64,000 nt of DNA, from NCBI RefSeq assembly GCF_036417845.1, contig NW_027118693.1, positions 2,118,001-2,182,000 on the forward strand, written 5' to 3'. This stretch comes from Apteryx mantelli. Lineage: Eukaryota > Chordata > Aves > Apterygiformes > Apterygidae. The notes under the pieces are model-generated. The model was not told the DNA's origin. It saw only the letters and a program-made list of their open reading frames with translations, and did no database searches. The translations under genes were made by a program, and so were the position numbers. Positions 1-46,987 of the stretch are shown in pieces; the stretch's first letter is position 1, and each line of letters opens with the position of its first letter.

Positions 1-186
1 TGATGTATTCTGGTTTCATTTGTTTCTCATGTTTAAGCCTAACAAAGTTACACTAGCGTGTTTCAAATGAACTTCATGAATGTCCATTTCCAGTGGCCAT
101 CTAGTGCTATCCTATGGAATAGAGGTGGGACGGTGGGACATCTGTTACCAAAAGCAGCCTTCTAGGGTGCACTAATGTCCCAGAAT

Positions 187-585
187 TTCAGACCTTCCTC
201 TTCCTGATGGTTCTAGTTATCTGCATTATGACTCTCCTTGGGAATATCCACTTCATTATGTTGGTAATTGCTGAGCAGCATTCCCATGCCTTTCAATTCT
301 GCCAGGCATGGGATGTGTTAGTACCCTATTCACTGTTTTGGGAACCCCTTCTACCAGAGAAAGACAGAAGGCTTTCTCAGCCACCTCCTTCCACCTCCCT
401 GTAGTAAAAATTTCTACAGCACCCTAATCATTGTGTATCTCTTACCAAAACCCAACACCCTGCCAACCCCTAGCAAAGGGTTTTCTGTCTTTTACACAGC
501 CCTCACTCTTCTAATCAAGATGCTCAGGTTGCCATTGATAATCCCATCCCCAACCAGTTCTTTTTTATCTTTCATATCATGACAG
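187..585 (+). pseudogene. Olfactory receptor pseudogene, internally deleted (left-arm copy)
   Basis: The start encodes a TM1-like stretch (FLFLMVLVICIMTLLGN, with the usual G-N). After a short unrelated joint, the sequence resumes at the end of intracellular loop 3 and TM6 (RQKAFSATSFHLPVV), followed by TM6-TM7 remnants ending in a VFYTALTLL-like segment. TM2 to TM5 are missing, including the DRY region and the disulfide loop. After the TM6 start this copy has one T fewer than the mirror copy (near 413-420), which breaks the frame. No receptor can be made. The same deletion exists in the other arm, so the gene died before the arms duplicated. Confidence 0.75.
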
Positions 586-3500
586 AAAAGATGCATTTAA
601 CCATGCATGCCTGCATCTGTCTGAATGTGCGTCTTCATCCCAAGAGAGATGGTTCAGTGATCTGCATGAAGTAGACATATTCAGGAGACAGATTCCAAAA
701 CTGAGCAGCCTGTTGTCACCTGATCTGAGAAAGAGCAAGCTGAGTTTTAATATTTTCCTGTTCTAATATAGCTTTGGAACAACTCCTGTGTTTAGGATAG
801 CTGGGAAGCAGGTACATGAATTATATTCACAATTATGGCAAAAAAAATCAGTGCCAGATGTGTAGTAATGTTTACAGGATTAAAAAAGTCGCTACCATGG
901 CATGAAGAGGTAGTTTTGAAAATTTTAATTCTAGCTTCCTCTCTCAACAGTTGTCCCTTCATGACCATTCCTTTTCCACCCCTTAGTTCCTTTTCCAGAA
1001 TACACTTCCGTCTTGAACTTGCGTAGTGTTGAAATATGCAGCCAGGTCCATGTCTTCCAGGGAGCAGAAAGGGAAGAGGGCACCCATGCTGCTACAAACT
1101 GCTTATCCATAGATTGTTCTTTTGTGCTTATCACACAACAAACTGGGGGGCTGGAATCATACTGACACAGGGGAAACTCTCTTCCCAAGCTTGTAGGGTG
1201 CATTATCAAAAGATCATATGGAGTCCCTCTGTGAAAACAGTGACTTAGCAGAAGTCTGGTAGGGTGGCCTTTGCACTTGTGGAGTTGAGCTGTCTTAGTT
1301 TGTGTTAATCATTTGGCCTCCCTTTATACTTGGGAACAGAAATAGGCAGCTATACAAAATTATTTATCTCACTTGAGCTGGTTTATAATTTAGGAGGAAA
1401 CTAAAGAGGAATATCATCATATTTCTGTTAGAAGGAAGCAAAAATGTTTGAAAGTTTTGCACAGAAAGAAGACCTACCCTGTTGGATGGCAGCATGGGCA
1501 GAGTCTTCCGGAAAGAAAGTAATGGAATACAAATGATTTCTGGCCTACGTTCTCTCATGCAGATCTTAGAAACTTACTTTGGGCACTTACTTTCTCCTGT
1601 CACATTCATGGAGCATGTTACTGACGCCTTTACAGGAGTAGGCAACACAAGAGCTTCAGGGCCACCCTCTCGCTGGCTGGGGTGAATGCAACTTCTGTTG
1701 TCAGTACTTTCAGAAGGAACGTAACATTTTAGATCTAAGAAAGGCTTTGCAGTAGACCAGAATATTTCTGTGTTCATTTAGCAAAGTCCTCAAGGTCCGC
1801 CTTTTTTTTATTTATTTACTTATTTCATTTTCAATTTACCCACTAATCCATTATTCATGCAGCTCAGGTGTCAGGGAGGTGGATAGCTATTTAGGGGACC
1901 TTTATCCACAGAAGAAAGTCTGTTATTTACTGTGCACATTTATTACAGGAAGCAGACCCTGTTGTCAGGAAATGCTGCTCATATTGCTTAACTTCTGGGC
2001 CTCCTGGGTGTCTGCTGGCCCACGTAGTGCCCCTGCAGCCCAGAGACACAGGCACGTAGTTTTGTGTGTGTTTCCTCCATTCAAGGCACATGAAATCAAG
2101 TGAGGGCTGTTGATCACCGCTGACAAAACATGTGCTTTGTTTTGTTTTATAGCGTGGCAGTGAGGATATGTGCTGCATGCCTTAGGGCATAAAATACAGT
2201 TCGACTTCTGCACAGAGCAGAGGAAGCAACACCCAGCACAGTCTTGTTTGTACCCCTTGCAAGGGACAGCTCTTGGAGTGACCTGTTCCTTCAATGGAAG
2301 AAGCAAATTCGTGAATGAACTGTCCCCACAACTGCACCTGGACTTTTCCCTGGTGTGAATAAAGTGAACAGTCTGGAGGCCAGGCCATCAGAGCAAAGCA
2401 AGCACCTAAGATATTGGTGTAGAGGTAGCAGTGGACAAACAGTGAGGTTCTGTTACTTCTGTGCTGTAACCAGAGGTGGGGCTCTCACACAGATAGTCAA
2501 ACTGTCGCTTTCTATCCAGAAAGATCAGAGACATTACTGCCACAGTGACTTTGAGGGGGATTTTTCACAATAAGATGCCTAAGATAACTAAGTTAAAGCA
2601 CTATCTGTGATTCCAAAGTCTCTTCACTGAAGATGTCTTGGTGGGATTCTTTGCCAACTTAAAGGGGATGGGAGTCATCCAACTAAATAACTTCAAAATT
2701 TCCATGCTAGGCATTTAAGACTAAACTCATCCATCTTGTGCTTCTGTACTATTGGGAGTGAGTGATTTAAATAACAAAAATGTCTCTCAGATAGAATGAT
2801 AATGTCATATTTTTATTTAAAATGGATAAACAAATACTGCTTTTGATTCTCATTCCAAAACAAGATATTTGTCTTGCAAATCGTGAGTGAAAATGAATCC
2901 ATGAAAATGACAAAATGGCAATACCATGACAAGGATTAGAGAAAAGGATTTTTTTCTTTGGTTTTGTTTGGTGAAGGGGTTGGAGAGAACTTAAGGTCTA
3001 GATCTAATCCTTGGGGCTGCAGAGGATGCACCTCACTGAGCTGGAGTCCCTCACCTGTGCAAATTATAACACATTGCCCAGCGTGTGGTTCAGCGCACCT
3101 GGTATTTCCTATGAAAAAGTTGAGCTTCCAATTCTATGCTCAGTATAGTTCCTCTGAAATGCTATGGACAATTAGCGTAAGAGGAGATGATATAATCCTC
3201 TAGACTGCTGATTCTTCCCCACAATCAAAGGAGGGCAGGCAATGCACTCAGCTTAGGGCATTTAAGTTACAAATGTTTATAAGTGGACAAACTAATTCTA
3301 CTGCGTGAATCTGTTCTATCAGATGAAGTATTGGCTCTAACAGTATTGTATCATAAGCACTGGGCATTTATTTCATTAAGCTTGACCTGTGGACAATTGC
3401 ATTGTTACTCAACAATTAAATTACTGACCAATATTCTGGATTTAGTTGCAGCTTAAAAGAGAGCTGATGTTAGGTGGGTAATTTAGACTTTATTTTGTCT

Positions 3501-4026
3501 ATGTTCTTGTCCCAGTGAGGAGATTAATGGGGAGAAAGCAAGTGCCACTTAGCAGAGAAGTAAAGCCATTATTGTTCTCTTTTTCTGTTGTTCCACCTGT
3601 TTTCTGTCTCTTTCTAAAGGCAAAGAGGTTCAACAAAGTTCTGCCACCAAAATAAGCAGGGGAAACCAGATTGTGTGACAAGGAGAAGCTGCATTCAAAC
3701 TGGAGGAAGGTGAACCGTCTTGAGAATTTGGTGTGCCAAGGAAGGAGGAACTCCTCAGCTTGTTGCTTTCTGTCTCAGTTTCCACACTTAGAAAACACCA
3801 TCACCAGGGTATTCACCAGGGTTTGTAAAGTGCTTTTAGACCATTTGAAAGGCATCCCTATCTGAGGATTAGGTCTTATCATGGTGATATGTTTCAGGAG
3901 AGAAACTGGTGTGATTTTATGAAAGTTCACACTGCTAAGAAAGAAAGGTGCAATTTCAGCAAATGAATCCTAATCATTTGTTCCATCCCCCCCCCTCCCT
4001 TTTCCCTCCACTTACAGAATCTCTTC
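586..4026. other. Intergenic, no recognisable gene
   Basis: AT-rich unique-looking DNA, mirrored at about 42,978-46,404 in the right arm. Open frames are short and have no recognisable domain. A run of C lies at about 3,988-3,996, just downstream of the OR stop codon, and differs in length from the mirror copy. Confidence 0.5.
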
Positions 4027-4974
4027 TCAGAAGGAAAAACATTTCCTGGAGATTATCACGCTTCTCTTCAAGCCCACCTTGAGAGCCTTCTTCATCTGCT
4101 CGTTCCTCAGGCTGAAAATGAAGGGGCTCATCAGAGGAGTTACCATTGTGTTGAGCAGGGCCACCATTTTGTTATAGGAAATGTGGTGACTTGAAGGCCG
4201 CATATACAGGAAGATGCAGCTACCATAGCCCAAGATGACAATGGTGAAGTGAGAGGAGCATGTAGAAAATGCCTTGTTCCTCGATGAAGCTGAGGGCAAC
4301 TTTAGTATGGTGTTAATGATGTACAGGTAGGACACTGCTGTCATGACCAGTGAGCCAAAGAGGATGATGAAAGCGTTCATGAAATTTATCAGCTCCACAG
4401 TCCGTGTGTCTGCACAGGACAACTTGATCAAAAGCACACCGTCACAGAAGAAGTGGTCAATATGATTGGCATTGCAGAAGGGCAACCTGGCAACTAGGAC
4501 AGTGGGGACAATGGTGGCCAGGAAGCCTGCAGTCCATGACCCCAACAGGAGCTGAACACAAAACTGGCTGTTCATGAGCATGGGGTACTGAAGAGGGTAG
4601 CATATGGCCACATAACGGTCGTAGGACATGACAGCCAGAAGGACAAATTTGATGACACCCAGGAAGGTGCAGAAATAGAACTGAGTTAAGCAAGCTGGGA
4701 AGGAGATGGCTTTGCTGTCCATCAACAAGCTTGCTACTGTTTTGGGTATGATGGATGTAGCAAAGAAGATCTCCAAAGAGGAGAGGTTGCAGAGGAAAAA
4801 GTACATAGGTCTGTGGAGGTCTCGGTCAGAAAGAATGAGGGCAACGATCAGCAGGTTTCCAACTAAGATCACCAGGTAGGAAGCCAGGAAAGTGATTGCT
4901 ATTAGGTACTCCTGATGGTGGAGGGAGGGGAAGCCCAAGAGAAGGAACTCTGTGACAGTCGTATGGTTCAACAT
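4027..4974 (-). CDS. Intact class II olfactory receptor (left-arm copy), 315 aa
   Basis: A seven-transmembrane odorant GPCR, expected in cilia of olfactory neurons. Signatures in order are an N-glycosylation site at N3 (NHT), G-N in TM1 (39-40), RPMYFF (55-60), the TM3 disulfide Cys at 95, MSYDRYVAIC (116-125), extracellular-loop cysteines at 167, 177 and 187, KAFSTCSSH (234-242) and a TM7 segment SPFIFSLRN (283-291). The start at 4,974 was chosen because MLNHTTVTEF is the normal OR N-terminus. The frame also stays open 36 codons upstream, but only from a non-ATG codon. The length is typical. The TM7 motif is SPxxF instead of NPxxY. Sequence style is family 6/11-like, which I cannot resolve further. 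The paralogue at 42,030-42,977 is 92% identical in protein. The splice acceptor seen upstream of that paralogue reads AA here (5,113-5,114). Confidence 0.93.
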   Translation of the reverse strand: MLNHTTVTEFLLLGFPSLHHQEYLIAITFLASYLVILVGNLLIVALILSDRDLHRPMYFFLCNLSSLEIFFATSIIPKTVASLLMDSKAISFPACLTQFYFCTFLGVIKFVLLAVMSYDRYVAICYPLQYPMLMNSQFCVQLLLGSWTAGFLATIVPTVLVARLPFCNANHIDHFFCDGVLLIKLSCADTRTVELINFMNAFIILFGSLVMTAVSYLYIINTILKLPSASSRNKAFSTCSSHFTIVILGYGSCIFLYMRPSSHHISYNKMVALLNTMVTPLMSPFIFSLRNEQMKKALKVGLKRSVIISRKCFSF

Positions 4975-7900
4975 ATCTGCAACTGAGCTGCAGTGAGTAA
5001 GAGAAGATGGTGAGTGGAGGAAACGATTCCTCAGAAGGTTAGAGGAAGTAGGGACAGGTAGAGAAATGTAAAAGTATAACAAAATAAGTACATGGGGTTA
5101 CTCACAAAAAGTTTGTAAGGAAAACAGAGAAGAGAGGAGAGGCACGGAGAAACACCATAGAGTAAGGAGACACCATTTCAAACAGTAACAACAAACTTAG
5201 TTTCTAGGTTAGAGTAGGAATCCACTATTAACAACCTGTAAGTTTTTGCATTTGAGCTTCTCACCCAAGTGTCCCTTTAGAGTCAATGGAGAAAAAATAG
5301 ACATTTCTTAATCATTCTTTCTCTAGTCTATCTTAAACCTATATTTTAGGATGAGATAAAATGCATCCTGGAGAAAGATAAAACATCTCTTCAAAGTGAC
5401 ATTAACTTTTTGATTAGGTAAGGAATGGAGAGAAAGCAGAAGAGGATGGTGATAAAGGAGGAGGCATATGGAAAATAAAGGTGAATGGGAGAGTTAGATA
5501 AGAGGAAAGTTTTATTCCCTGGGAATGATTTTATTTTCAGGGGGAAAAAAAGCCAAAAAGAGGGAAGACAAGCATTCTATGATTAAAACTGTTGTCTTTC
5601 CATCCAAGCTGAAACTTTTCCATATAGAGCAGAAATCTTTATAAACAGATTTTTCTTCAGTCACAGCAATCTTTCTTGCTGAGAAATGATTTTGATAAAA
5701 CCTTCTGGCCATCAGAAGGAAAAATAAATAAGAAAGGAATACAAAGGAGAGAGAGGGGAAAAAAAAAAGAAAAAACCAAAGAGATAAAAAGATTAAGGAT
5801 ATTCATTCAGCTGGGGATAAAAGAAAGCCCTATCCTGTAAAGCAAATAGACAAATAAACTAACAGAGACTCAAAAGACCATTTTATTTATTTATTTATTT
5901 ACTGTGAACACTGGAAAAATTAAGCTTGGTTTGATATGGAGTCGGTCCTGAATTCATTACCTGAGGTCTTGAAGACAATGAATTCTAAATGCAGTCCTCT
6001 CAGGACAGTCTACCCCTACATAGACCATCTCCTTTCCATCCTGCTGCTTTTGCTCACGGAACTTGTATAAGCCCAAAAGAGAGAACAATACTACTCTGTG
6101 CAGCTTAGCTGGACCTGGCCAACAAGCTGAAGCAGAGGAAGGGCTAGAGACCCAGGCACATAGACACAGACTGGTCAGCAAGGTCTCATTGCCTGAGAAA
6201 TATCACAGGCAAAGGGGGACAGTCACAGGCAGGCAGGCAGGCAGTCTAGGAACTCAACAACAACAACAAAAATAGCAGTCAACAGAAAATGAGGTGAAAT
6301 GCAGCAAAGCAGTTACTTACATTAATCTATGTGCAGGAAACACTATCAAGGGGAAATAGAAGGCCAGCAGAATTTCTGCAGACCATCATCTCCTTCCCTC
6401 TCCTCCCACAACCTTGAGAGAACAATCTGGCATGTCTCATTTCAAGGTTCTTGCAGAGCCTCTTTGAGTCAGCTGCTAATGCCGTTTGTTCTGATGCACT
6501 GTGCTGCCAGACAGAAGTAAGCTCTGATTTTCTTTTTCCTTTCAAGTAAAACCACCCAAAGTCCTTTGGCATTCCCTGAAGAATCACGGTCCTCTGTGCT
6601 TTCCTGAGATGCTCCTCAGCAGAGTCGGTCTGAGAGGGTGACAGGACATTAATTAAAATGATAGCTGGTACCCAGGTGACCTAATCCCTGCAGAAATGTA
6701 GATCCATTTTGTGAGGCAGCCTAAGAGAGAGAAACACCAAATCTTAAAAGGTGCTATCAAGAAACGTAACCTGTGAAAGCAGCTTCTGTGGAGCTACTGT
6801 CACACTCCCTGCCTTATCTTTCTAATGTTGGACATCGAAAGGATAGATTTTAAATGTTCAAGAGGTAGACACCTTAGGTTGCCTTAGGTTAGTCAGTGGA
6901 GTTTAGGACATGATTCAACTTTTCGCAGAATGGATTTCTAAAGGAGAGGAGAGGAACAGATTCCTCCTCTCTAAGGGCAGAGGGAGGCTGGAGTGACAGA
7001 CTGACATCTAGGCATCTTCATTGCAGACCTCTGGGAGCTCTTCAGGGGTGAGACATTGGTTCCTAAGGGCCACCTGACTATCTTCTACCCCTCCAAAAGG
7101 AAGTGTGAACCTGAGGGTTCAGAGTTATAACTGCCAACATAATGCAGACCTCTCTTACCATCTTAATGCATCTAGGTTAGGACTAGGCACCTCTGTTTTG
7201 ACCTCTGAATTGTTCACCTAAAGTTCAGTGAGAGCAATCTCATCCGTGGTGACACTGAGCAAGGCTTTCCCTTTCCCTGAGTACAGGCAGGCTCTTAGTC
7301 CACCTTCTCTGTGCTCAGTGTGGACAGCCCCAGCAGAGCATAAGCCTCTGTCCATAGGCTTGTTACTGAACTCCAGTGTTCCCAGGGGACTATTGGACCC
7401 TGTCTTTGTCTAAGCTGGGCTCTAGATCTCTTCTTGTTTCAACCCATTTCTTCATTTTCCAGTACATCCAGGGGGTGCAGAGGAGTGGCTGGTGCAGCCC
7501 AGCGTCCCCTCAATTTCCTCACCAGTCTTTCAGGAAGCATGTACCCATGTCGTTGTGCTTCCAGCTGATGTATCACCTCATGTAGGGTTGATGCACAGAG
7601 ACATTTGGCCAGTCTTCCTGCATCTTGGGATCCATTTTGACCACAGCACTTTGCTTGCAAAGGGTTTGCGTGAAGGAATTCTGAAGAATGTGTGCTATGA
7701 GTAATTGTCCTTATGAAATATATCCACCTGTCTCTAGTGAGTGTGGTCATGTACACCAGTCAGGGTGGCATTTTATCCACACTCAGCATCGTTCTATAAT
7801 TGCAAGGTTGAACAGAGAGCAGCTGTTCCTGGTGGGGGTCTCTGCTGGGCCAGTCTCCAACCACACCTGGAACAATGTGCCAGATGTGACCCCAGTTGTG

Positions 7901-8589
7901 GGAGCATTTGGCACCACCACAGCCATCCCCTGGGGTCAGGGCTGGTGCTGCTGGGTGGGGGGAAGCACCATCCACCGCAGCTAACAGCTCTGGGTGCACA
8001 GGGGTGCACACAAGTGGTGCTGGGACCCCTCCTCCCCCATGGGGCCAAACCAGGGGGGACAAGGGGTCCAAAGGGCTCTGGGGAACGTGATGGGGAGACA
8101 GAAAGAGTGGAGGAGGCTTGGGAGAGCTTTTGGTAGACAGAAGTGGGTGAGGAGCGGGAGGAGGACCCGTGACACCCAAGGAAGTGACCAAGAGGTGGAG
8201 CTCAGTACTGAACTGATCAGCTAGGGTTTTCTTCATTTTGTTCACTGCCTGTAGAGCAAGTGTGAAGCTTTCATCACTGAGGCAACTGCTGTCCTTGTGC
8301 TTCAAATGGTTCCTGGAAACACGCCTGTTAGCTTTGAGCATGAACTGGCTTTCAACCAGAAGCTGGAAGCTTGACTTCCTGCTGCTCTGTGTACCCGGAG
8401 GCTGGCTCCAAGGTCTTCCAGGCCATGTGTCTCTGCAGCAGGGGCTGGGGCTTGACCCAGAGAAAGTCATGGCATCTCCCTGGTCCCCCTTGGGAGAAGG
8501 AAACTACAGAGACACTGCCCTTCTGACAAGACTTTGCTGCCCAACTAGAAGACCATTTCCTGGAGGAGGAGAACCCTGTCAGGAGCTTA
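4975..8589. other. Intergenic, upstream of left OR; no recognisable gene
   Basis: Probably includes the OR promoter and untranslated leader exons, which cannot be placed from sequence alone. It is mirrored at about 38,520-42,029. The left copy has about 85 extra bases around 5,780-5,865 and a TTTA microsatellite where the right copy has poly(A). The 7,440-8,470 stretch is GC-rich, and its open frames on both strands are conserved in the other arm only because the DNA is duplicated; none resembles a known domain. Confidence 0.5.
5881..5901. repeat. (TTTA)n microsatellite
   Basis: About five tandem TTTA units directly before the conserved flank ACTGTGAACACTGG. The mirror position in the right arm (41,205-41,231) is a pure A run instead. 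Confidence 0.85.
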
Positions 8590-8599
8590 CAAAGCTCTG

Positions 8600-9255
8600 T
8601 CCCATGCCCTTGGCTTCAGGAGTGCACCGTCAGCAAGTTTGCTGATGATACAGCACTGGGAGGAGTGGCTGATACACCAGATGGTTGCCCTGCCATTCGG
8701 AGTGATCTTGACAGGCTGGAGAAAAGGGCAGAGAGGAACCTCATGGAGTTCAGGAAAGGAAAATGCCAAGTTCTTCACCTAGGGAAGAATGACCCCATGC
8801 ACCAGTACAGGCTGGGTGCCATCTGCAGAGAAGGACCTGGGTGTCCTGGTGAACACCAAGTTGACTGTGAGCCAGCAATGTGCCCTTGCAGCAAAAGCCA
8901 ATGGTATCCTGGGCTACCTTAGGAAGAACGTTGGCAGGAGGTCAAGGGAGGTGATCCTCCCCCTCTACTCAGCACTGGTGAGACCACTTCTGGACTGGTG
9001 TGTCTAGTTCAGGGCTCCCCAGTACAGGAGAGACACGTGGACATATTGGAGCAAGTCCAGCAAAGGGCCACAAAGATGATTAAGGTTCTGGAGCATCTCA
9101 TACATGGAAAGTCTGTGAGACCTGGAACTGTTTAGCCTGGAGAAGAAAAGGCTCAGAAAAGGCTCTTATCAAGGTTTATAAGCATCTGATGGGAGGCAGT
9201 AAAGAAGGTGGAGCCAGAATCTTCTCCGTGGTGCCCTTGGCAGGACGAGAGGCCC
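8600..9255 (+). mobile_element. CR1 LINE fragment, ORF2 reverse-transcriptase end (left arm)
   Basis: The plus strand encodes the CR1 catalytic box and thumb region: FADDTALGGVADTPDG, then NLMEFRKGKCQVLHLGK, then LPLYSALVRPLLDW. The frame is interrupted by stops and small indels, for example a TAG after the GLRPLLDWCV-like segment and a short deletion relative to the mirror copy near 8,820. The normal CR1 3' end is missing; similarity fades near 9,255, while the inverted duplication itself continues to 9,343. The element is dead. The mirror copy is 37,850-38,520. Confidence 0.88.
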
Positions 9256-9479
9256 TTGGAAGGAGATGCTCCATTCCCGGAGGGTACACCTCTGAGATAC
9301 TGTGGTCTAAAGGCAACCTGCGCTGGAGCAGGGACACCCTGAGGAACAGCAGCCCACAGGTGAGCCATGCTGGGTCAGGGATACCACGGAGGGACTTGAC
9401 CCATTGGTGAAAAAGCCCCAACACAGTGTCACAGATACTCAACTCCTGCAGAGAGAGACAACACCTAAGTGCTGTGTGC

Positions 9480-9965
9480 CCACTTTGGGAGGGGAGCGGG
9501 GGTTCACTTGAGAGCTGCTGGTAGACCCTGCCAGGAAGTGGGGGAACAAACAGGAGGAGTCAGAAATGTGTGTGCATTTACAGGGCTGCAATCTCATTGG
9601 GATCATGGAGACGTGGTGAGAGAGCTCACACAACTGTAATGCTGGGAGGGATGGACAGAGGCTCTTTAGGAGGCACAGGCTGGGATGGCAAGGAGGGGCA
9701 GTTGTCCTTTGTGTGAGAGAGCAGCGGGAAGGCATGGAGCTCTGCCTGGGGATGGAGGATAAGCTGGTCGAGACCTGATGGGTTAGGATTAATGGGCAGA
9801 TCATGGGCAATGTTTGTGTGGGTGTCTGCTCTAGACCGCCTGGTCAGGAAGGAGTAGATGAGGCCTTCCTCGGACAACCAGCAGAAGCCTCCTATTCACA
9901 GGCCCTGGTGCTCAGGCAGGCTTGACCTACCCCGAGATCTGCCAGAGGGACAACACAGAAGGGAG
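9480..9965 (+). mobile_element. CR1 LINE fragment, ORF2 endonuclease start
   Basis: The plus strand matches the beginning of CR1 ORF2: a CNLIGIMETW-like opening, then GGAVVLCVREQREGMEL, then the segment running into GDLPEGQHRRE where intact copies carry the D-I-C-W-R-D-N motif. There are several in-frame stops. The fragment sits just inside the inner boundary of the left arm and ends head-on against another CR1 piece in the opposite orientation. Confidence 0.72.
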
Positions 9966-9969
9966 ATAC

Positions 9970-10420
9970 CTCCACCTTTCCCCTCTCCTTTGTCACCAAG
10001 GCCCCTACCCCAATTAGCAGCAGGGCCACATTTTCCCTAGCCTTCCTCTTGCTGCTGATGGATCTGTAGAAGCCTTCCTCGTTGCCCTTCACTTCCCTCC
10101 CCAGATTCAACTCCAGGTGGGCTCTGGCTTTCCTGACCCCATCCCTCCATGCTTGGACAGTGTCTCTCTATTCCTCCTAGGTCACTTGTATCTGCTTTCA
10201 CCTCTTGTAGACTTCCTTTTTACATCTGAGTTTTGTCAGCAGCTCCTGGTTCATACCTGCAGGCCTCCTGATGCTTCTTCTTGATTTTCAGTTTGTCAGG
10301 ATAGTTCATTCTTGAGCTTGGGGGAGGTGATCCCTCTTCCCTCCAGGACTGTACTGCTTGGGATTCTTCTAGAGCAGATCCTGAAGAGGCTTTGGGGCAG
10401 GCACCTCGTGCCAGGCCACT
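9970..10420 (-). mobile_element. CR1 LINE fragment, ORF2 linker between endonuclease and RT
   Basis: The minus strand encodes the linker typical of CR1 ORF2. It runs from an IPSSTVLEGRGI segment (near 10,340) through NLGREVKGNEEGFYRSISS to KRKARENVALLLIGVGALVT (near 9,970-10,110). It lies in the opposite direction to the endonuclease fragment beside it, so the two are a composite and not one element. Frameshifts are present. Confidence 0.72.
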
Positions 10421-10529
10421 TTGTCCAGGGACAGGTCTCCAGCCTGGCCTTCAGCAGCACCTTGAGAAATACACAAGTCCCTGCATGCTGCACTGTCTGC
10501 CGTCCCACTGTGCAGATGTCCTGAGGCAC

Positions 10530-11339
10530 ATCCAGGGCCTTTCACTGTGCTGGCCTGGCATCATGCAGGGTCGGTGGGCTGGTGCGAGAGCCTGCGGCTC
10601 TCCCCACACCCTGGGCTCTCCAGGGCAGCTGGAGGCCTCAGCACCCCTCAGAGCTACTCATGGGATGCTACGGGGGTGGGCGTCAGGGGCAGAGGGGGGG
10701 GTCCCCTCTGATGCAGGCGTGAGGCTCAGCTCCCCCACAACACCTGATGACTCACAGCCTGGGATGGGGAGGACACATCCCTCCTTGAATGGTCCTGCAG
10801 CCTTTCTAGGAGCCATAGAAAATTGTTGCCACCAAGAAGTAAGAGGAGCAGGTGGGAAGCCTTTTGTCTCCCAAGGGTGGAAGGAATCCTCAGGATGGTG
10901 GGGATGACACATGCCCAGCTGACTGGGGTTAAGGGAAATGGAGGGAGGGTTACAATGGAGGAGGGGAACAAGTTCACAAAAATGGTTAGGCTGGAGTTCA
11001 GTGCAAGATAGTTTACCAGGGTGGAGGGGGAAGGCGTAACTACAAAGATGTAGTTAATTACACTGAAGCCTCAAAAACCATCTCTAGCCTCTAAAACAAA
11101 GTGATGTTGTATCTGTCTATCTATATGCAAGTGATATTGCATTACTCTAATGTTTTCCTTGCTTCTTGCATGCTCATTTGTATCGAACTGAGTCACTATG
11201 GGGGGAAAAGTCCAGCAGTGCTCAGGCAGCACTCGACTCTCAGGGCCTGTTTCACATTCCCACACTTAAGCTTGCAGAAGGAGGATTCAGGGAGGGCTCA
11301 TGACAATGGTCACTCTCACCGAACTGCCAAGCTCAGAGA
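10530..11339. other. Spacer DNA, no recognisable gene
   Basis: GC-rich to about 10,750, then mixed composition. The longer open frames (up to about 170 codons) overlap on both strands and contain no recognisable domain, as expected by chance in GC-rich DNA. Confidence 0.45.
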
Positions 11340-12465: not shown

Positions 12466-12469
12466 AAAG

Positions 12470-33022: not shown

Positions 33023-33025
<3 letters not shown>

Positions 33026-34735: not shown

Positions 34736-34784
34736 GACACCTCGACACCTTCCCACTGCCTCAGAGTCCCCCATCCTCCTACCC

Positions 34785-36609: not shown

Positions 36610-36789
36610 AGTAGAGCCATTGCACACACAGTGTCCTTGGCCCTTGGTCACAGGTTTCCCCATGACCAATCTGTGCTTTGTGCCACAGCTGAGGCTCTAC
36701 AGCCCAAACAGACACAAGTGCATGCAGCCTGGGGCACAGCAGGAGGCACTTGGAGACACACAAGCTGTCACAGGGCTGCCACATGGTTG

Positions 36790-37745
36790 GAATAACTGAG
36801 ATGTGGTGGGTTCACTCGCACGACTGGAGGGCTGCGATAGTAGGGTACAAGTTCTTCAGGGGAGACCAAGGCAGAGGATGAGGAGGGGGATGCCCTTTGT
36901 GTGAAGGCACAGCTCAGATGTATGGAGCTCTTCCATGGGACAGACAAGGGGAGGCAACTCTGAAGGGCAGGGTAGCTCGGGAGAGCCAGCAGGTCTTTTA
37001 GGACAGCATCCACCAAGCACAAGAATGGTCCATCCTGATACTCAGTTAAACTACTAGACATCTCAGGAGACCAGCTTGGCTGAAGAGGGAACTCATGCCT
37101 GAGCTCCAGTGCAATAAGGCAGCATATGGGAATGGGAAGGAGGGAGAAACTGCAAAGGAGCAATTCAGAAATATTGTCCAGTGAAGTAGGGATGGTGTTA
37201 GGGAAGCCAAAGCTCCTGTGGGATTGACACTTGCAGGGATGTCAAGAGCATGAAGAAGAGCTGCTACTGCTTCAGCTGCAGTAAAAGAATGCAAAAGAAA
37301 ATGTGGGCTCACTGCTGAGTGGGGCAGGGAATCTAGTAGTAGCAGATGTAGATAGATCTGAGGCACTCAATGCATTCTTGGCTTCAGTCTTCACCAAGAA
37401 GGTCTCCTGGGCCGTAGCACCTAGAGTCAGAACTCCAGAGGGGAAAAGTCACCAGCAGTGGATGAGGTCTGAGTGAGGGATTACTTGCAAGAACTCAGCC
37501 CATACAAGTCTAAGGGACTGGATGGGTGGCATCAGAGGGCATTGAGAAAGCTGGCTGCTGTCGTAGCAAGGCTGCTCTCTATTATTTTTGAAAGGTTGTG
37601 GAGATGAGGGGAGGTCCCAATGAGCTGAAAAAGGGCTGTTGTGCCCATCCTCAGAAAAGGCCACAAGGACAACCCGGGGAGCTACAGGCTGTTCAGCCTC
37701 ACTTTGGTGAGCAATGTGTCATGGAGCAAATGCTCTCGGACCATA
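36790..37745 (+). mobile_element. CR1 LINE fragment, ORF2 endonuclease to start of RT
   Basis: The plus strand encodes, in fragments, WWVHSHDWRAAIVGYKFF (start of ORF2), a LNAFLASVFTKKVSW-like linker near 37,357-37,410, and PILRKGHKDNPGSYRLFSL (near 37,644-37,700), the CR1 RT entry segment. Stops and deletions abound. It abuts the inner edge of the right arm at about 37,750, where another CR1 piece begins on the opposite strand. Confidence 0.8.
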
Positions 37746-37849
37746 GTTCTTGACTCATGCAGGGTGTCCCTGCTGCAGCGCAGGTTGCCTTCAGACCACA
37801 GTATCTCAGAGGTGTACCCTCTGGGAATGGAGCGCCTCCTTCCAAGGGC

Positions 37850-38520
37850 CTCTCGTCCTGCCACGGGGCACCACGGAGAAGATTCTGGCTCCACCTTCTT
37901 TACTGCCTCCCATCAGATGCTTATAAACCTTGATAAGAGCCTTTTCTGAGCCTTTTCTTCTCCAGGCTAAACAATTCCAGCTCTCGCAGACTTTCCGCAT
38001 GTGAGACATGCTCCAGTCCCTTAATCATCTTTGTGGCCCTTTGCTGGACTTGCTCCAATATGTCCATGTGTCTCCTGTACTGGGGAGCCCTGAACTAGAC
38101 ACAGCAGTCCAGATGTGGTCTCACCAGTGCTGAGTAGAGGGGGAGGATCACCTCCCTCGACCGGCTGGCAATGCTCTTCCTAAGGTAGCCCAGGATACCG
38201 TTGGCTTTTGCTGCAAGGGCACATTGCTGGCTCACGGTCAACTTGGTGTTCACCAGGACCCCCAGGTCCTTCTCTGCAGAGCTGCTCTCCAGCTGGGGGG
38301 CACCCAGCCTGTACTGGTGCATGGGGTCATTCTTCCCCAGGTGAAGGACTTAGCATTTTCCTTTCCTGAACTCCATGAGGTTCCTCCCTGCCCTTTTCTC
38401 CAGCCTGTCAAGATCACTCCGAATGGCAGGGCAACCATCTGGTGTATCAGCCACTACTCCCAGTGCTGTATCATCAGCAAACTTGCTGAGGGTGCACTCC
38501 TGAACTCAAGGGCATGGGAC
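37850..38520 (-). mobile_element. CR1 LINE fragment, ORF2 reverse-transcriptase end (right arm)
   Basis: Mirror of 8,600-9,255. On the minus strand it reads MHQYRLGAPQLESSSAEKDL, then GVLVNTKLTVSQQCALAAKA and LPLYSALVRPHLDCCV. This copy keeps the LESSSAEKDL segment that the left copy has partly deleted, so it is the less damaged of the two. Confidence 0.88.
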
Positions 38521-41204
38521 AGAGCTTTGTAAGCTCCTGATACGGTTATCCTCCTCCGGGAAATGGTCTTCTGGTTGGGCAGCAAAGTCCTCTTGGCAGG
38601 CCAGTGTCTCTGCAGTTTCCTTCTCACAAGGGGGACCAGGGAGATGCCGTGACTTTCGTTGGATCAAGCCCCAGCCCCTGCTGCAGAGACACGTGGCCTG
38701 GAAGACCTTAGAGCCAGCCTCCAGGTACACAGAGCAGCAGGAAGTCAAGCTTCCAGCTTCTGGTTGAAAGCCAGTTCATGCTCAAAGCTAAGAGGTGCAG
38801 GAACCATTTGAAGCACAAGGACAGCAGTTGCCTCAGTGATGAAAGCTTCACACTTGCTCTACAGGCAGTGAACAAAATGAAGAAAACCCTAGCTGATCAG
38901 TTCAGTACTGAGCTCCACCTCTTGGTCACTTCCTCGGGTGTCACGGGCCCTCCTCCTGCTCCTCACCCACTTCTGTCTAGTAACAGCTCTCCCAAGCCTC
39001 CTCCACTCTTTCTGTCTCCCCATCACGTTCCCCAGAGCCCTTTGGACCCCTTGTCCCCCTGGTTTGGTCCCATGGGGAAGGAGGGGTCCCAGCATCACTT
39101 GTGTGCACCCCTGTGCACCCAGAGCTGTTAGCTGCGGTGGATGGTGCTTCCCCCCACCCAGCAGCACCAGCCCTGACCCCAGGGGATGGCTGTGGTGGTG
39201 CCAAATGCTCCCACAGCCAGGGTCACATCTGGCACATTGTTCCAGGTGTGGTTGGAGACTGGCCCAGCAGAGACCCCCACCAGGAACAGCTGCTCTCTGT
39301 TCAACCTTGCAATTATAGAACGATGCTGAGTGTGGATAAAATGCCACCCTGACTGGTGTACATGACCACACTCACTAGAGACAGGTGGATATATTTCATA
39401 AGGACAATTACTCATAGCACACATTCTTCAGAATTCCTTCACGCAAACCCTTTGCAAGCAAAGTGCTGTGGTCAAAATGGATCCCAAGATGCAGGAAGAC
39501 TGGCCAAATGTCTCTGTGCATCAACCCTACATGAGGTGATACATCAGCTGGAAGCACAACGACATGGGTACATGCTTCCTGAAAGACTGGTGAGGAAATT
39601 GAGGGGACGCTGGGCTGCACCAGCCACTCCTCTGCACCCCCTGGATGTACTGGAAAATGAAGAAATGGGTTGAAACAAGAAGAGATCTAGAGCCCAGCTT
39701 AGACAAAGACAGGGTCCAATAGTCCCCTGGGAACACTGGAGTTCAGTAACAAGCCTATGGACAGAGGCTTATGCTCTGCTGGGGCTGTCCACACTGAGCA
39801 CAGAGAAGGTGGACTAAGAGCCTGCCTGTACTCAGGGAAAGGGAAAGCCTTGCTCAGTGTCACCACGGATGAGATTGCTCTCACTGAACTTCAGGTGACA
39901 ATTCAGAGGTGCCTAGTCCTAACCTAGATGCATTAAGATGGTAAGAGAGGTCTGCATTATGTTGGCAGTTATAACTCTGAACCCTCAGGTTCATACTTCC
40001 TTTTGGAGGGGTAGAAGATAGTCAGGTGGCCCTTAGGAACCAACGTCTCACCCCTGAAGAGCTCCCAGAGGTCTGCAATGAAGATGCCTAGATGTCAGTC
40101 TGTCACTCCAGCCTCCCTCTGCCCTTAGAGAGGAGGAATCTGTTCCTCTCCTCTCCTTTAGAAATCCATTCTGCGAAAAGTTGAATCATGTCCTAAACTC
40201 CACTGACTAACCTAAGGCAACCTAAGGTGTCTACCTCTTGAACATTTAAAATCTATCCTTTCGATGTCCAACATTAGAAAGATAAGGCAGGGAGTGTGAC
40301 AGTAGCTCCACAGAAACTGCTTTCACAGATTACATTTCTTGATAGCACTTTTAAAGATTTGGTGTTTCTCTCTCTTAGGCTGCCTCACAAAATGGATCTA
40401 CATTTCTGCAGGGATTAGGTCACCTGGGTACCAGCTATCATTTTAATTAATGTCCTGTCACCCTCTCAGACCGACTCTGCTGAGGAGCATCTCAGGAAAG
40501 CACAGAGGACCGTGATTCTTCAGGGAATGCCAAAGGACTTTGGGTGGTTTTACTTGAAAGGAAAAAGAAAATCAGAGCTTACTTCTGTCTGGCAGCACAG
40601 TGCATCAGAACAAACGGCATTAGCAGCTGACTCAAAGAGGCTCTGCAAGAACCTTGAAATGAGACATACCAGATGATTGTTCTCTCAAGGTTGTGGGAGG
40701 AGAGGGAAGGAGATGATGGTCTGCAGAAATTCTGCTGGCCTTCTATTTCCCCTTGACAGGGTTTCCTGCACATAGATTAATGTAAGTAACTGCTTTGCCG
40801 CATTTCACCTCATTTTTTGTTGATTGCTATTTTTGTTGTTGTTGTTGAGTTCCTAGACTGCCTGCCTGCCTGCCTGTGATTGTCCCCCTTTGCCTGTGAT
40901 ATTTCTCAGGCAATGAGACCTTGCTGACCAGTCTGTGTCTATGTGCTTGGATCTCTGCCCCTTTCTTTGCTTTAACTTGTCGGCCAGGTCCAGCCAAGCA
41001 GCACAGAGTAGTACTTTTCTCTCTTTTGGGCCTATACAAGTTCTGTGAGCAAAAGTGGCAGGATGGAAAGGAGGTGGTCTGCATAGGTAGGACTAGACTG
41101 TCCTGAGAGGATTGCATTGAGAATTCGTTGCCTTCAAGACCTCAGATAATGAATTCAGGATCAACTCCATACCAAACCAAGTTTAATTTTTCCAGTGTTC
41201 ACAG

Positions 41205-41231
41205 AAAAAAAAAAAAAAAAAAAAAAAAAAA
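41205..41231. repeat. Poly(A) tract
   Basis: 27 consecutive A bases immediately after the conserved flank TCCAGTGTTCACAG. The mirror position in the left arm is (TTTA)n. Confidence 0.95.
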
Positions 41232-41891
41232 GGAGTGCCTGTTAGTTTATTATCCTTGGATTTTCTTTTTTTTTCTCCCTCCCTTATATTACCTTTTTTT
41301 CATTTTTATTTTTCCTTCTGATGGCCAGAAAGTTTTATCAAAACCGTTTCTCAGCAAAAAGATTGCTGTGACTGAAGAAAAATCTCTTTATAAAGCTTGG
41401 ATGGAAAGACAGTTTTAATCATAGCATGTTTGTCTTATTTCTTTTGGGCTTTTTTTCCCCCCTGAAAACAAAAACATTCCCAGGGAATAAAACTTCCCTC
41501 TTATCTAACTCTCCCATTCACCTTTATTTTCCATATGCCTCCTCCTTTGTCACCATTCTTCTTCTTCCTTCTTTCCATTCCTTACCTAAAATCAAAAGGT
41601 TAATGTCACTTTGAAGAGATGTTTTATCTTTCTCCAGGATGCATTTTATCTTATCCAAAAATACAGGTTTAAGATAGACTAGAGAAAGAATGACTGAGAA
41701 ATGTCTATTTTTTTCTCCACTGACTATAAAAGGACACTTGAGTGAGGAGCTCAAATGCAAAAACTTACATGTTGTTAATAGTGGATTCCTACTCTAACCT
41801 AGAAACTAAGTTTGTTGTTACTGTTTGAAATGGTGTCTCCTTACTCTATGTTGTTTCTCCATGCCTTGTCTCTCTTCTTTGTTTTCCTTAC

Positions 41892-41893
41892 AG
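41892..41893 (+). promoter_or_regulatory. Candidate 3' splice site before right-arm OR
   Basis: CTTCTTTGTTTTCCTTACAG is a good acceptor, 137 bases before the OR ATG, as expected for an OR with a non-coding leader exon. The left arm reads TTACAA at the same place. Confidence 0.4.
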
Positions 41894-42029
41894 ACTTTTT
41901 GTGTGTCCCCATGGACCTCTTTTGTTATACTTCTACATTTCTCTACCTGTCTCCACTTCCTCTAACCTTCTGAGGAATTGTTTCCTCCACTCACCATCTT
42001 CTCTTATTCACTGCAGCTCAGTTGCAGAT

Positions 42030-42977
42030 ATGTTGAACCATACGACTGTCACAGAGTTCCTTCTCTTGGGCTTCCCCTCCCTCCACCATCAGGAGTACCT
42101 AATAGCAATCACTTTCCTGGCTTCCTACCTGGTGATCTTAGTTGGAAACCTGCTGATCATTGCCCTCATTCTTTCTGACCGAGACCTCCACAGACCCATG
42201 TACTTTTTCCTCTGCAACCTCTCCTCTTTGGAGATCTTCATTGCTACATCCATCATACCCAAAACAGTAGCAAGCCTGTTGATGGGCAGCAAAGCCATCT
42301 CCTTCCCAGCTTGCATAACTCAGTGCTACTTCTACTTCCTCTTGGGCACCATCGAGTTTGTCCTTCTGGCTGTCATGTCCTACGACCGTTATGTGGCCAT
42401 ATGCTACCCTCTTCAGTACCCCATGCTCATGAACAGTCAGCTTTGTGTTCAGCTCCTGTTGGGATCATGGACTGCAGGCTTCCTGTCCACCATTGTCCCC
42501 ACTGTCCTAGTTGTCAGGCTGCCCTTCTGCAATGCCAATCATATTGACCACTTCTTCTGTGACAGCATGCTTTTGATCAAGTTGTCCTGTGCAGACACAC
42601 GGACTGTGGAGCTGATAAGTTTCATGACTGCTGTCATCATCCTCTTTGGCTCACTGGTCATGACAGCAATGTCCTACCTATACATCATTAACACCATCCT
42701 TAGGTTGCCCTCAGCTTCGTCACGGAACAAGGCATTTTCTACATGCTCCTCTCACTTCACCATCGTCATCTTGGGCTATGGTAGCTGCATCTTCCAGTAT
42801 GTGCTGCCTTCAAGTCACCACACTTCCTATTACAAAATGGTGGCCCTGATCAACACAATGGTAACTCCTCTGATGAGCCCCTTCATTTTCAGCCTGAGGA
42901 ACGAGCAGATGAAGAAGGCTCTCAAGGTGGGCTTGAAGAGAAGTGTGATAATCTCCAGGAAATGTTTTTCCTTCTGA
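42030..42977 (+). CDS. Intact class II olfactory receptor (right-arm copy), 315 aa
   Basis: Paralogue of the left-arm receptor, with the same architecture: N-glycosylation site N3, G-N 39-40, RPMYFF 55-60, Cys 95, MSYDRYVAIC 116-125, loop cysteines 167, 177 and 187, KAFSTCSSH 234-242, and TM7 SPFIFSLRN 283-291. The ATG at 42,030 gives the standard MLNHTTVTEF start; upstream in-frame extension exists but is not OR-like. It differs from the left copy at 26 residues, seven of them in 96-109 of TM3 and others in extracellular loop 2, TM5 and the TM6-TM7 loop. The first 162 coding bases are identical. The concentration of change in the odorant-facing helix suggests different ligand tuning, which is an inference. 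Confidence 0.94.
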   Translation: MLNHTTVTEFLLLGFPSLHHQEYLIAITFLASYLVILVGNLLIIALILSDRDLHRPMYFFLCNLSSLEIFIATSIIPKTVASLLMGSKAISFPACITQCYFYFLLGTIEFVLLAVMSYDRYVAICYPLQYPMLMNSQLCVQLLLGSWTAGFLSTIVPTVLVVRLPFCNANHIDHFFCDSMLLIKLSCADTRTVELISFMTAVIILFGSLVMTAMSYLYIINTILRLPSASSRNKAFSTCSSHFTIVILGYGSCIFQYVLPSSHHTSYYKMVALINTMVTPLMSPFIFSLRNEQMKKALKVGLKRSVIISRKCFSF

Positions 42978-45900
42978 GGAGGGATTTTGTAAGTGGAGGG
43001 AAAAGGGAGGGGGGATGGAACAAATGATTAGGATTCATTTGCTGAAATTACACCTTTCTTTCTTAGCAGTGTGGAGTTTCATGAAATCACACCAGTTTCT
43101 CTCCTGAAACATATCACTATGATAAGACCTAATCCTCAGATAGGGATGCCTTTCAAATGGTCTAAAAGCACTTTACAAACCCTGGTGAATACCCTGGTGA
43201 TGGTGTTTTCTAAGTGTGGAAACTGAGACAGAAAGCAGCAAGCTGAGGAGTTCCTCCTTCCTTGGCACACCAAATTCTCAAGACAGTTCACCTTCCTCCA
43301 GTTTGGATGCAGCTTCTCCTTGTCACACAATCTGGTTTGCCTGTTTATTTTGGTGGCAGAGCTTTGTTGAACCTTTTTGCCTTTAGAAAGAGACAGAAAA
43401 CAGGTGGAACAAATAAAAAGGAGAGCAACAATGGCTTTATTTCTCTGCTAAGTGGCACTTACTTCTCCCCATTAATCTCCTGGTTGGGACAAGAACACAG
43501 ACAAAATAAAGTCTAAATTACCCACCTAACATCAGCTCTCTTTTGAACTGCAACTAAATCCAGAATATTGGTCAGTAATTTCATTGTTGAGTAACAATGC
43601 AATTATTCTCAGATCAAGCTTAATGAAATAAATGCCCAGTCCTTATGATACAATACTGTCAGAGCCAATACTTCAGCTAATAGAACAGATTCATGCAGTA
43701 GAATTAGTTTCTCCACATATAGACATTTGTAACTTAAATGCCCTAAGCTGAGTGCATCGCCCACCCTCCTGTGATAGTCTAGAGGATTACATCATCTCCT
43801 CTTACGCTAGTTGTCCATAGTACTTCAGAGGAACTATACGGAGCATAGAATTGGAAGCTCAACTTTTTCATAGGAAATGCCAGGTGCACTGAACCACACG
43901 CTGGGCAATGTGTTATAATTTGTGCAAGTGAGGGAGTTTACATCAGTGAGTTCTGTCCTCTGCAGCCCCAAGGATTAGATCTAGGCCTTAAGTTCTCTCC
44001 AACCCCTTCACCAAACAAAACCAAAGAAAAAAATCCTTTTCTCTAATCCTTGTCATGGTATTGCCATTTTGTCATTTTCATGGATTCATTTTCACTCACG
44101 ATTTGCAAGACAAATATCTTGTTTTGGAATGAGAATCAAAAGCAGTATTTGTTTATCCATTTTAAATAAAAATATGACATTATCATTCTATCTGAGAGAC
44201 TTTTTTATTATTTAAATCACTCACTCCCAATAGTACAGAAGCACAAGATGGATGAGTTTAGTCTTAAATGCCTAGCATGGAAATTTTGAAGTTATTTAGT
44301 TGGATGACTCCCATCCCCTTTAAGTTGGCAAGGAATCCCACCAAGACATCTTCAGTGAAGAGACTTTGGAATCACAGATAGCACTTTAACTTAGTTATCT
44401 TAGACATCTTATTGTCAAAAATCCTCCCCAAAGTCATTGTGGCAGTAATGTCTCTGATCTTTCTGGATAGAAAGCTACAGTTTGACTATCTGTGGGAGCG
44501 CCACACCTCTGGTTACAGCATAGAAATAACAGAACCTCACTGTTTGTCCACTGCTGCCTCTACACCAATATCTTAGGTGCTTGCTTTGCTCTGATGGCCT
44601 GGCCTCCAGACTGTTCACTTTATTCACACCAGGGAAAAGTCCAGGTGCAGTTGTGGGATAGTTCATTCACGAATTTGCTTCTTCCGTTGAAAGAACAGGT
44701 CACTCCAAGAGCTGCCCCTTGCAAGGGGTACAAACAAGACTGTGCTGGGTGTTGCTTCCTCTGCTCTGTGCAGACGTCAAACTGTATTTTATGCCCTAAG
44801 GCATGCAGCACATATCCTCACTGCCACACTACAAAACAAAACAAAGCACGCATTTTGTCAGCGGTGATCAACAGCCCTCACTTGATTTCATGTACCTTGA
44901 ATGGAGGAAGCACACACAAAACGACATGCCTGTGTCTCTGGGCTGCAGGGGCACTACGTGGGCCAGCAGACACCCAGGAGGCCCAGAAGTTAAGCAGTAT
45001 GAGCAGCATTTCCTGACAACAGGGTCTGCTTCCTGTAATAAATGTGCACAGTAAATAACAGACTTTCTTCTGTGGATAAAGGTCCCCTAAATAGCTATCC
45101 ACCTCCCTGACACCTGAGCTGGATAAATAATGGATTTTTTTTTTAATAGGTGAATTGAAAATGAAATAAATAAATGAAAAAAAAAGAAGGTGGACTTTGA
45201 GGACTTTGTTAAATGAACACAGAAATATTCTTGTCCACTGCAAACCCTTTCTTAGATCTAAAATGCTATGTTCCTTCTGAAAGTACTGACAACAGAAGTT
45301 ACATTCACCCCAGCCAGCGAGAGGGTGGCCCTGAAGCTCTTGTGTTGCCTACTCCTGTAAAGGCATCAGTAACATGCTCCATGAATGTGACAGGAGAAAG
45401 TAAGTGCCCAAAGTAAGTTTCTAAGATCTGCATGAGAACGTAGGCCAGAAATCATTTGTATTCCATTACTTTCTTCCCAAAAGACTGTGTCCACGCTGCC
45501 ATCCAACAAAGTTGGTCTTCTTTCTGCACAAAACTTTCAAACATTTTTGCTTCCTTCTAACAGAAATATGATGATATTCCTCTTTAGTTTCCTCCTAAAT
45601 TATAAACCAGCTCAAGTGAGATAAATAATTTTGTATAGCTGCCTATTTCTGTTCCCAAGTATAAAGGGAGGCCAAATGATTAACACAAACTAAGACAGCT
45701 CAACTCCACAAGTGCAAAGGCCACCCTACCAGACTTCTGCTAAGTCACTGTTTTCACAGAGGGACTCCATATGATCTTTTGATAATGCACCCTACAAGCT
45801 TGGGAAGAGAGTTTCCCCTGTGTCAGTATGATTCCAGCCCCCCAGTTTGTTGTGTGATAAGCACAAAAGAACAATCTATGGATAAGCAGTTTGTAGCAGC

Positions 45901-46404
45901 ATGGGTGCCCTCTTCCCTTTCTGCTCCCTGGAAGACATGGACCTGGCTGCATATTTCAACACTACGCAAGTTCAAGACGGAAGTGTCTTCTGGAAAAGGA
46001 ACTAAGGGATGGAAAGAGAATGGTCATGAAGGGACAACTGTTGAGAGAGGAAGATAGAATTAAAATTTTCAAAACTACCTCTTCATGCCATGATAGCGAC
46101 GACTTTAATCCCGTAAACATTACTACACATTGGCACTGATTTTTTTTGCCATAATTGTGAATATAATTCATGTACCTGCTTCCCAGCTATCCTAAACACA
46201 GGAGGTGTTCCAAAGCTATATCAGAACAGGAAAATATTAAAACTCAGTTTGTTCTTTCTCAGATCAGGTGACAACAGTCTGCGCAGTTTTGGAATCTATC
46301 TCCTGAATACGTCTACTTCGTGCAGATCACTAAACCATCTCTCTTGGGCTGAAGACGCACATTCAGACAGATGCAGGCATGCATGGTTAAATGCATCTTT
46401 TCTG
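42978..46404. other. Intergenic, no recognisable gene
   Basis: Mirror of 586-4,026. Nothing beyond short open frames. Confidence 0.5.
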
Positions 46405-46800
46405 TCATGATATGAAAGATAAAAAAGAACTGGTTGGGGATGGGATTATCAATGGCAACCTGAGCATCTTGATTAGAAGAGTGAGGGCTGTGTAAAAGAC
46501 AGAAAACCCTTTGCTAGGGGTTGGCAGGGTGTTGGGTTTTGGTAAGAGATACACAATGATTAGGGTGCTGTAGAAAATTTTTACTACAGGGAGGTGGAAG
46601 GAGATGGCTGAGAAAGTCTTCTGTCTTTCTCTGGTAGAAGGGGTCGTCAAAACAGTGAATAGGGTGCTAACACATCCCATGCCTGGCAGAATTGAAAGGC
46701 ATGGGAATGCTGCTCAGCAATCACCAGCATAACAAAGTGGATATTCCCAAGGAGAGTCGTAATGCAGATAACTAGAACCATCAGGAAGAGGAAGGTCTGA
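46405..46800 (-). pseudogene. Olfactory receptor pseudogene, internally deleted (right-arm copy)
   Basis: Mirror of the left-arm pseudogene, sharing the loss of TM2-TM5. Here the TM6-TM7 portion is still in one frame: RERQKTFSAISFHLPVVKIF, YSTLIIVYLLPKPNTLP and SKGFSVFYTALTLL. This frame keeps the base that the left copy lost. It ends without the NPxxY segment. Confidence 0.8.
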
Positions 46801-46987
46801 AATTCTGGGACATTAGTGCACCCTAGAAGGCTGCTTTTGGTAACAGATGTCCCACTGTCCCACCTCTATTCCATAGGATAGCACTAGATGGCCACTGGAA
46901 ATGGACATTCATGAAGTTCATTTGAAACACGCTAGTGTAACTTTGTTAGGCTTAAACATGAGAAACAAATGAAACCAGAATACATCA

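Follow-up and report, generated by a model that had tools for sequence, protein, structure and literature searches.

Inverted olfactory receptor arms on an Apteryx mantelli contig as a probable slice of an amplicon with sequence exchange among its copies

Introduction

Is an inverted pair of olfactory receptor (OR) gene arms in the genome of the bird Apteryx mantelli a self-contained palindrome around a spacer of its own, or one slice of a larger system of interacting copies? The question is raised by a stretch of 64,000 nucleotides, referred to below as the window (assembly GCF_036417845.1, contig NW_027118693.1, here C282, positions 2,118,001-2,182,000), in which an earlier note, made from the sequence letters, had described two inverted arms separated by a 28.4-kb spacer. 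It is proposed here, with a probability of roughly three in four, that the window samples part of an OR amplicon in which modules of inward-facing arms are a common unit and the copies pair and repair one another by gene conversion.

The structure was read from the assembled sequence alone, and the search space was the source genome, 1.50 Gb in 408 contigs, of which C282 comprises 5.65 Mb. Coordinates follow the numbering of the window, and negative values denote positions to its left. In the genome probe searches only the best candidates were scored (40 per DNA probe), so that copy counts are lower bounds.

Inverted arms and a duplicated spacer

Self-BLAST of the window returned inverted matches of 1-5,773 to 46,987-41,261 and of 5,881-9,341 to 41,225-37,760, which bears out the arms of about 9.3 kb that the earlier note had described. 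Global alignment of arm A (1-9,341) with arm B (46,987-37,760) gave an identity of 95.6% over 9,186 columns, with 405 mismatches and 30 gaps, and a Kimura two-parameter distance of 0.046. When flanking contig sequence is added, the full arms extend from -9,384 to 9,341 on the forward strand (A, of which the window holds the inner part) and from 37,760 to 55,190 on the reverse strand (B, complete in the window), and are 95-97% identical, with 95.0% between 49,942-41,261 and -2,953 to 5,773, and 97.2% between 55,190-49,944 and -9,384 to -4,145. The arms are real and too diverged for an assembly fold-back, a diagnosis that had been reserved for identical arms, as they differ at 4.4% of sites. Their identity is uneven: the longest mismatch-free run, at 7,221-7,893, reaches 672 bp, whereas no run in 10,000 shuffles exceeded 347 bp, and the 500 columns richest in mismatches contain 74 of them, compared with at most 45 in 1,000 shuffles. 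Each arm carries one intact OR gene of 315 amino acids, at 4,027-4,974 on the reverse strand in A and at 42,030-42,977 on the forward strand in B, matching Pfam 7tm_4 with an E value of about 1e-46, and the two genes are oriented divergently, in agreement with the pair reported before.

The whole inverted repeat is considerably larger, pairing about -24,050 to 9,341 with 37,760 to 87,504, so that its outer limits (about -24,050 and 87,504) fall beyond the window on either side, as the earlier note had expected. An outer block, X, is part of it, with a left copy at about -18,557 to -9,588 and a right copy at 73,018-81,986, and homology extends approximately 5 kb farther outward. The spacer is not single-copy. 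Its part next to arm B, block Y (18,553-37,758), has an inverted duplicate directly to the left of the window, at -38,117 to -18,914. Its part next to arm A, block Z (9,342-18,552), was searched with a probe at 12,500-14,400, for which at least 11 copies with an identity of 96% or more were found, all on C282, among the best 40 of 1,250 candidates. The locus therefore has the two colinear, inverted arms of high identity that are expected of a palindrome (95.6% over 9.2 kb, 95-97% when extended); with a duplicated spacer and dozens of arm copies, it has neither a unique spacer nor a private arm pair.

Copies across the genome

A 2-kb probe from the arm (1,000-3,000) yielded 67 candidates, 40 of which were scored: 28 lie on C282, two on C29, three on C25, and seven on seven other contigs. 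An outer-arm probe yielded 74 candidates genome-wide, of which likewise the best 40 were scored. The C282 copies match 1.7-2.0 kb of the 2-kb probe each and are equally divided between the two orientations (14 plus, 14 minus), but not randomly ordered, with 21 runs of orientation (runs test, p = 0.016). Among neighbouring pairs less than 50 kb apart, eight of nine face inward (plus, then minus), one is in tandem and none faces outward, and the inward pairs recur at start-to-start spacings of about 14, 20-21 and 42-48 kb. Inward-facing arms around a spacer thus form a module that occurs at least eight times on C282.

Three inverted pairs other than those of the window have identities of 99.87-99.98%. 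In the palindrome at 2.46-2.48 Mb, 4 sites in 17.1 kb separate the two arms, which flank a centre of 1.8 kb, and its X blocks mirror each other to within 11 bp. An arm identity above 99.9%, characteristic of Y-type palindromes, is reached only by a 16.3-kb tract in block Y (99.95%), the 2.47-Mb pair and a pair on C25, and not by A and B. The 2.47-Mb pair was also seen to sit in a larger, near-perfect palindrome (C282:2,431,655-2,514,384), with X blocks approximately 40 kb on either side of the centre at 2,473,014.

Arm copies were also noted on C7, C13, C14, C17, C21, C23, C25 and ten small contigs. Three sampled 0.9-kb arm pieces from other contigs are 99.3-99.9% identical to one another and ~94% identical to arm A. 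On seven contigs longer than 10 Mb, no more than 2.31 Mb separates these arm copies from an end, an arrangement with a probability of ~2e-5 under uniform placement when C20 is left out; counter to such a bias, the four copies on C20 lie 2.8-6.7 Mb from an end, and two more on C25 lie at 3.07-3.08 Mb.

Sequence exchange among the copies

Eleven arm copies were examined, nine were aligned (two broken copies on C25 were left out) and seven were tested for exchange, the near-identical twins P2455b and C29b having been dropped beforehand; the pairwise homoplasy index (PHI) and the GENECONV-like test were custom implementations. In the nine-copy alignment, identity to arm A is 96.2% for the left-flank arm, 96.1% for a copy at 3.39 Mb, 95.9% for the 2.46-Mb pair and 95.8% for B, so that among the aligned copies three distinct ones are nearer to A than B is. 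PHI was 0.435, compared with a mean of 0.530 in 1,000 shuffles (standard deviation 0.0044, minimum 0.516), none of which was as low. Three exchange tracts had a global permutation p below 1/2000: an 831-bp tract shared by A and the left-flank arm, the 672-bp tract shared by A and B, and a 467-bp tract shared by B and the left-flank arm; tracts in four further pairs had p values of 0.0065-0.04. On the forward strand of A, the 831-bp tract occupies 4,808-5,639, comprising the 5' end of the OR gene and upstream DNA, while the 672-bp tract (7,221-7,893) has no mismatches and is mirrored in B. Judged from these alignments, the arms are mosaics, with exchange running through the array rather than within a private pair. 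The suggestion of the earlier note that the arms exchange sequence is accordingly upheld by the A-B tract, but not the privacy of that exchange, given the three copies nearer to A and the 831-bp tract. Exchange between copies, another feature of Y-type palindromes, is hence supported by both PHI and the tract tests, which do not separate conversion from crossing-over.

Homogenization is strongest in the supposed spacer and not in the arms. A tract at 19,387-35,695, which contains one intact OR gene and the possible exons of a CCDC116-like gene, differs from its inverted twin at about -36,060 to -19,747 by 8 substitutions and 2 indels in 16.3 kb. Next to its outer edge, 12 mismatches fall in 142 bp, and farther out, over the ~14 kb examined, the identity of the arm to the twin side is for the most part 94-97%. 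Inward of the tract, homology continues for 0.8 kb, as far as 18,553, and this remainder consists of 480 clean bp and 352 bp (18,555-18,906) with 13 mismatches. The tract looks like the product of a recent gene conversion, a recent duplication being less likely: because both edges sit within longer homology, whereas duplication alone should stop where homology stops, a conversion-like event is the simpler reading. As for its direction, the left copy matches the right copy at 82,339-87,504 at ~98% in Y but at 99.7% in X, which hints that the left Y was the recipient.

Based on these observations, a mechanism may be outlined. Inverted copies would pair and repair each other by non-crossover recombination, that is gene conversion, homogenizing stretches of sequence, and crossovers or template switching would add, delete or invert modules. 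Selection would hold the OR frame open while allowing a few receptor regions to vary, from which many similar but distinct receptors may result.

Weighing the explanations

Several observations weigh against the proposed amplicon of mutually converting modules. Twelve of the 28 scored C282 arms lie outside any close inward pair, 14 of the 21 arm-copy pairs have no significant tract, and the synonymous divergence between the OR genes of A and B (0.092) is twice the whole-arm distance (0.046). The mosaic structure can come from unequal crossing-over as well as from conversion, and the tests do not distinguish the two. The inner edge of the 16.3-kb tract is thinly supported, with homology continuing only 0.8 kb past it, 480 bp of which are clean. 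In addition, the tract exceeds the maximum recorded for the human Y palindrome P6 (>9 kb; PMC3723533) and may be a composite or a recent duplication. The main doubt concerns mis-assembly of near-identical blocks, the chief threat to the proposal, above all for pairs near 99.9%; arms A and B, at 95.6%, are little affected by it.

The last two doubts correspond to explanations in their own right. The 16.3-kb tract may be a very recent duplication of block Y, the flanks of which were overwritten later by other arm copies; this is the less probable account, though a serious contender, as it accommodates the very low divergence and the position of the inner edge, 0.8 kb from the end of homology, and arms do exchange sequence. 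The thin inner flank therefore gives this account more weight, and conversion less. On the other hand, colinear homology continues beyond both edges, which suggests that the recipient already had a homologous copy, and overwriting the entire outer flank would need extra steps. It is unlikely, though not negligibly so, that some of the near-identical inverted pairs are assembly artefacts, either hairpin joins or one haplotype placed twice. Long accurate reads have about the length of the 16.3-kb tract, and the identities of 99.87-99.98% in the three other inverted pairs would fit such an origin; the window arms, by contrast, differ at 4.4% of sites, the left and window twins have diverged colinear flanks, unlike a simple fold-back, and in the 2.47-Mb palindrome a centre of 1.8 kb separates the arms, with X blocks mirrored to 11 bp.

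A stand-alone inverted duplication, in which a single event placed A and B on either side of a unique spacer, is hardly credible any longer. The arms are colinear, inverted and 95.6% identical and have a 672-bp tract in common, but A is nearer to three other distinct copies than to B, an inverted copy of the spacer adjoins, and 28 scored arm copies are present on C282; the copy number, the duplicated spacer and the closer relatives of A rule this origin out. It is also quite improbable that C282 is sequence of the W chromosome. Palindromes have been reported on the W of the duck (PMC7787181), whereas here many other contigs, including some large ones, carry these blocks as well.

Within the favoured interpretation, that of an OR amplicon with exchange among its modules, a more specific proposal is tentative, at somewhat short of even odds: that the sequence belongs perhaps to an autosomal chromosome with a Y-like palindromic OR amplicon, in which inward pairs are a unit of amplification, exchanges in tracts of up to ~16 kb reshuffle upstream DNA and 5' coding ends among intact receptors, and selection diversifies other receptor regions.

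The arms had further been suggested to flip the spacer. In the modules at 3.77 and 4.83 Mb, two spacer markers are in reversed order between inward-facing arms, but an inverted module as a unit would account for that order just as well, so that spacer flipping is a possibility rather than a finding; among the scored matches, no outer flank able to separate the two was found at either reversed module.

Receptor genes

The arm receptors have a full frame with the 7tm_4 domain, and the best solved relative of the arm B gene is consOR6 (9ldv), which makes them OR6-like within a comparison limited to OR families with solved structure. The frame is intact in 9 of the 11 copies examined, including all six on C282, while both C25 copies are broken; seven distinct sequences are represented. 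Between the OR genes of A and B, the synonymous divergence (dS) is 0.092 and the nonsynonymous divergence (dN) 0.040, a ratio of 0.43, and the ratio is 0.31-0.88 in other unequal pairs. Across the seven distinct sequences, the 60 variable amino-acid sites are clustered (binned test, p = 0.0014), with most of them in residues 91-120, 151-206 and 256-278, which presumably line the odour pocket, while the 31 codons with synonymous changes only are not (p = 0.20). The binned test was used for clustering, and a Fisher test on receptor regions, the regions having been picked post hoc, was not relied on.

As for the spacer genes, the OR gene is intact (20,855-21,814, forward strand) and its left copy encodes a 100% identical protein; its designation as OR14-like comes from the earlier note only. 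The accompanying CCDC116-like gene is no more than a possibility: a possible exon at 30,720-31,304 on the reverse strand matches PF15774 (DUF4702) at 22.3 bits, below the curated cutoff of 27, and the four other scanned frames had no match. A 308-amino-acid open frame at 26,768-27,691, also on the reverse strand and possibly a second exon of this gene, had no Pfam match. The region 26,700-28,700, which covers part of this possible block, was seen to have a second, more diverged family of relatives (84-85%; best 40 of 91 candidates scored) on C6, C10, C19, C20, C22, C24, C29, C32, C333, C355, C377, C380, C390 and C399. Apart from these copies, a dense, high-scoring OR cluster at C1:0.40-1.67 Mb accounts for 112 of 138 scored PF13853 matches, in a first look that yielded 7,953 candidates genome-wide, most of them unscored.

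Relation to known systems

The closest published case found is that of chicken chromosome 29, a dot chromosome with an amplicon of OR29G, comprising 386 intact copies in pericentromeric heterochromatin (PMC9974502). In both systems a mostly intact OR is heavily amplified on a small unit of chromosome size, and multicopy genes lie in DNA rich in satellites; the many intact copies on one small contig that typify the OR29G amplicon are found here too (28 scored arms on the 5.65-Mb C282). Unlike in the chicken, amplification here takes in two OR types together with a possible CCDC116-like gene, and inward arm pairs and mosaic arms are present; the main text of the chicken study uses neither the word palindrome nor the word inverted (PMC9974502). 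As for pericentromeric heterochromatin, the sequence examined here showed only a 65-bp satellite array from 98.6 kb onward. The likeness does not establish C282 as a dot chromosome or as chromosome 29.

In human P6, inverted repeats are homogenized by conversion in tracts of multiple kilobases (mean 2,068 bp, maximum >9 kb), with rare inversions (PMC3723533). The resemblance lies in this homogenization, but P6 is on a sex chromosome, while here an OR array occupies many contigs, with arms mostly 94-97% identical and one 16.3-kb tract. In birds, Steiger and colleagues (2009) assigned almost all intact gamma-c ORs to the unknown chromosome and suspected gene conversion (PMC2758906), and recombination breakpoints were detected with GARD inside OR14 genes of three herons and egrets (PMC9531477). 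Lineage-specific OR growth with proposed gene conversion is thus common to these expansions (PMC2758906, PMC6969042, PMC9531477) and the present array; what differs is that the genomic layout and single exchange tracts with their flanks are seen directly here, and that the arm OR is OR6-like and so not itself shown to be gamma-c. The duck W, with 38 palindromes of 15.2-345.5 kb, provides a parallel of large palindromes in a bird, but these are described as repeat-rich and without robustly expressed genes (PMC7787181), whereas the present arms carry intact ORs. A survey of 117 vertebrates reported a bias of bird subtelomeric duplications towards interchromosomal events (PMC13431229).

The titles and abstract openings of the mostly open literature searched mentioned no palindromic OR amplicon of a bird, and the layout may already be described; a preprint (PMC13320880) refers to a companion study of OR genes in birds. 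In the present assembly, an OR amplicon is directly readable, with the positions of copies, the mostly inward-facing close pairs and the exchanged stretches. If the more specific, tentative proposal above is right, OR repertoires would grow as a recombining palindrome system and not by simple tandem duplication. Should the amplicon itself be upheld by reads, it would offer a mechanism, open to testing, by which the smell receptors of birds turn over rapidly and in a lineage-specific way, and perhaps a setting in which palindromes undergo gene conversion away from sex chromosomes.

Other features of the locus

A 17.4-kb segment outside arm B (55,190-72,603, with 55,191-64,000 in the window) has no counterpart beside arm A. 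Block X lies 15.5 kb outward of A, compared with 30.1-32.1 kb in all eight other pairable C282 arms, the pairing having been done by hand and two of the 11 X copies on C282 having no scored arm copy nearby. Because all eight of these arms have X at the longer distance and A has it at the shorter, a loss beside A is likelier than an insertion beside B, which is disfavoured.

Dead OR fragments, one per arm as described before, were recovered by tblastn at 129-505 on the forward strand, with internal stops, and at 46,489-46,859 on the reverse strand. A further, broken OR lies in outer arm B (51,919-52,903, forward strand), with a mirror copy at -7,084 to -6,070. The repeat piece reported for each arm is present at the inner ends, at 8,869-9,232 on the forward strand (77% identical to 11,430-11,794) and at 37,848-38,245 on the reverse strand (78% to 11,418-11,816). 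Its similarity is confirmed, while its name is less secure: the pieces and the open reading frame region at 11,418-11,816 are taken here to be CR1, and a Pfam scan of that frame gave no match. Scans of the 64-kb window for tRNAs and Rfam families gave no matches.

In block Z, 183 extra bases at ~13,400 are present in the ten other C282 copies and absent from the window copy, and a 6-base overlap of the two matched pieces resembles a target-site duplication. Block X holds a 1.5-kb repeat with relatives of 81-85% identity on many contigs (for example, C16:2,703, C372:13,964 and C7:139,447), some of which sit near a contig start. On the right flank, a tandem satellite array with a 65-bp unit begins at 98.6 kb in window coordinates and continues for at least 5.3 kb, to the end of the sequence examined.

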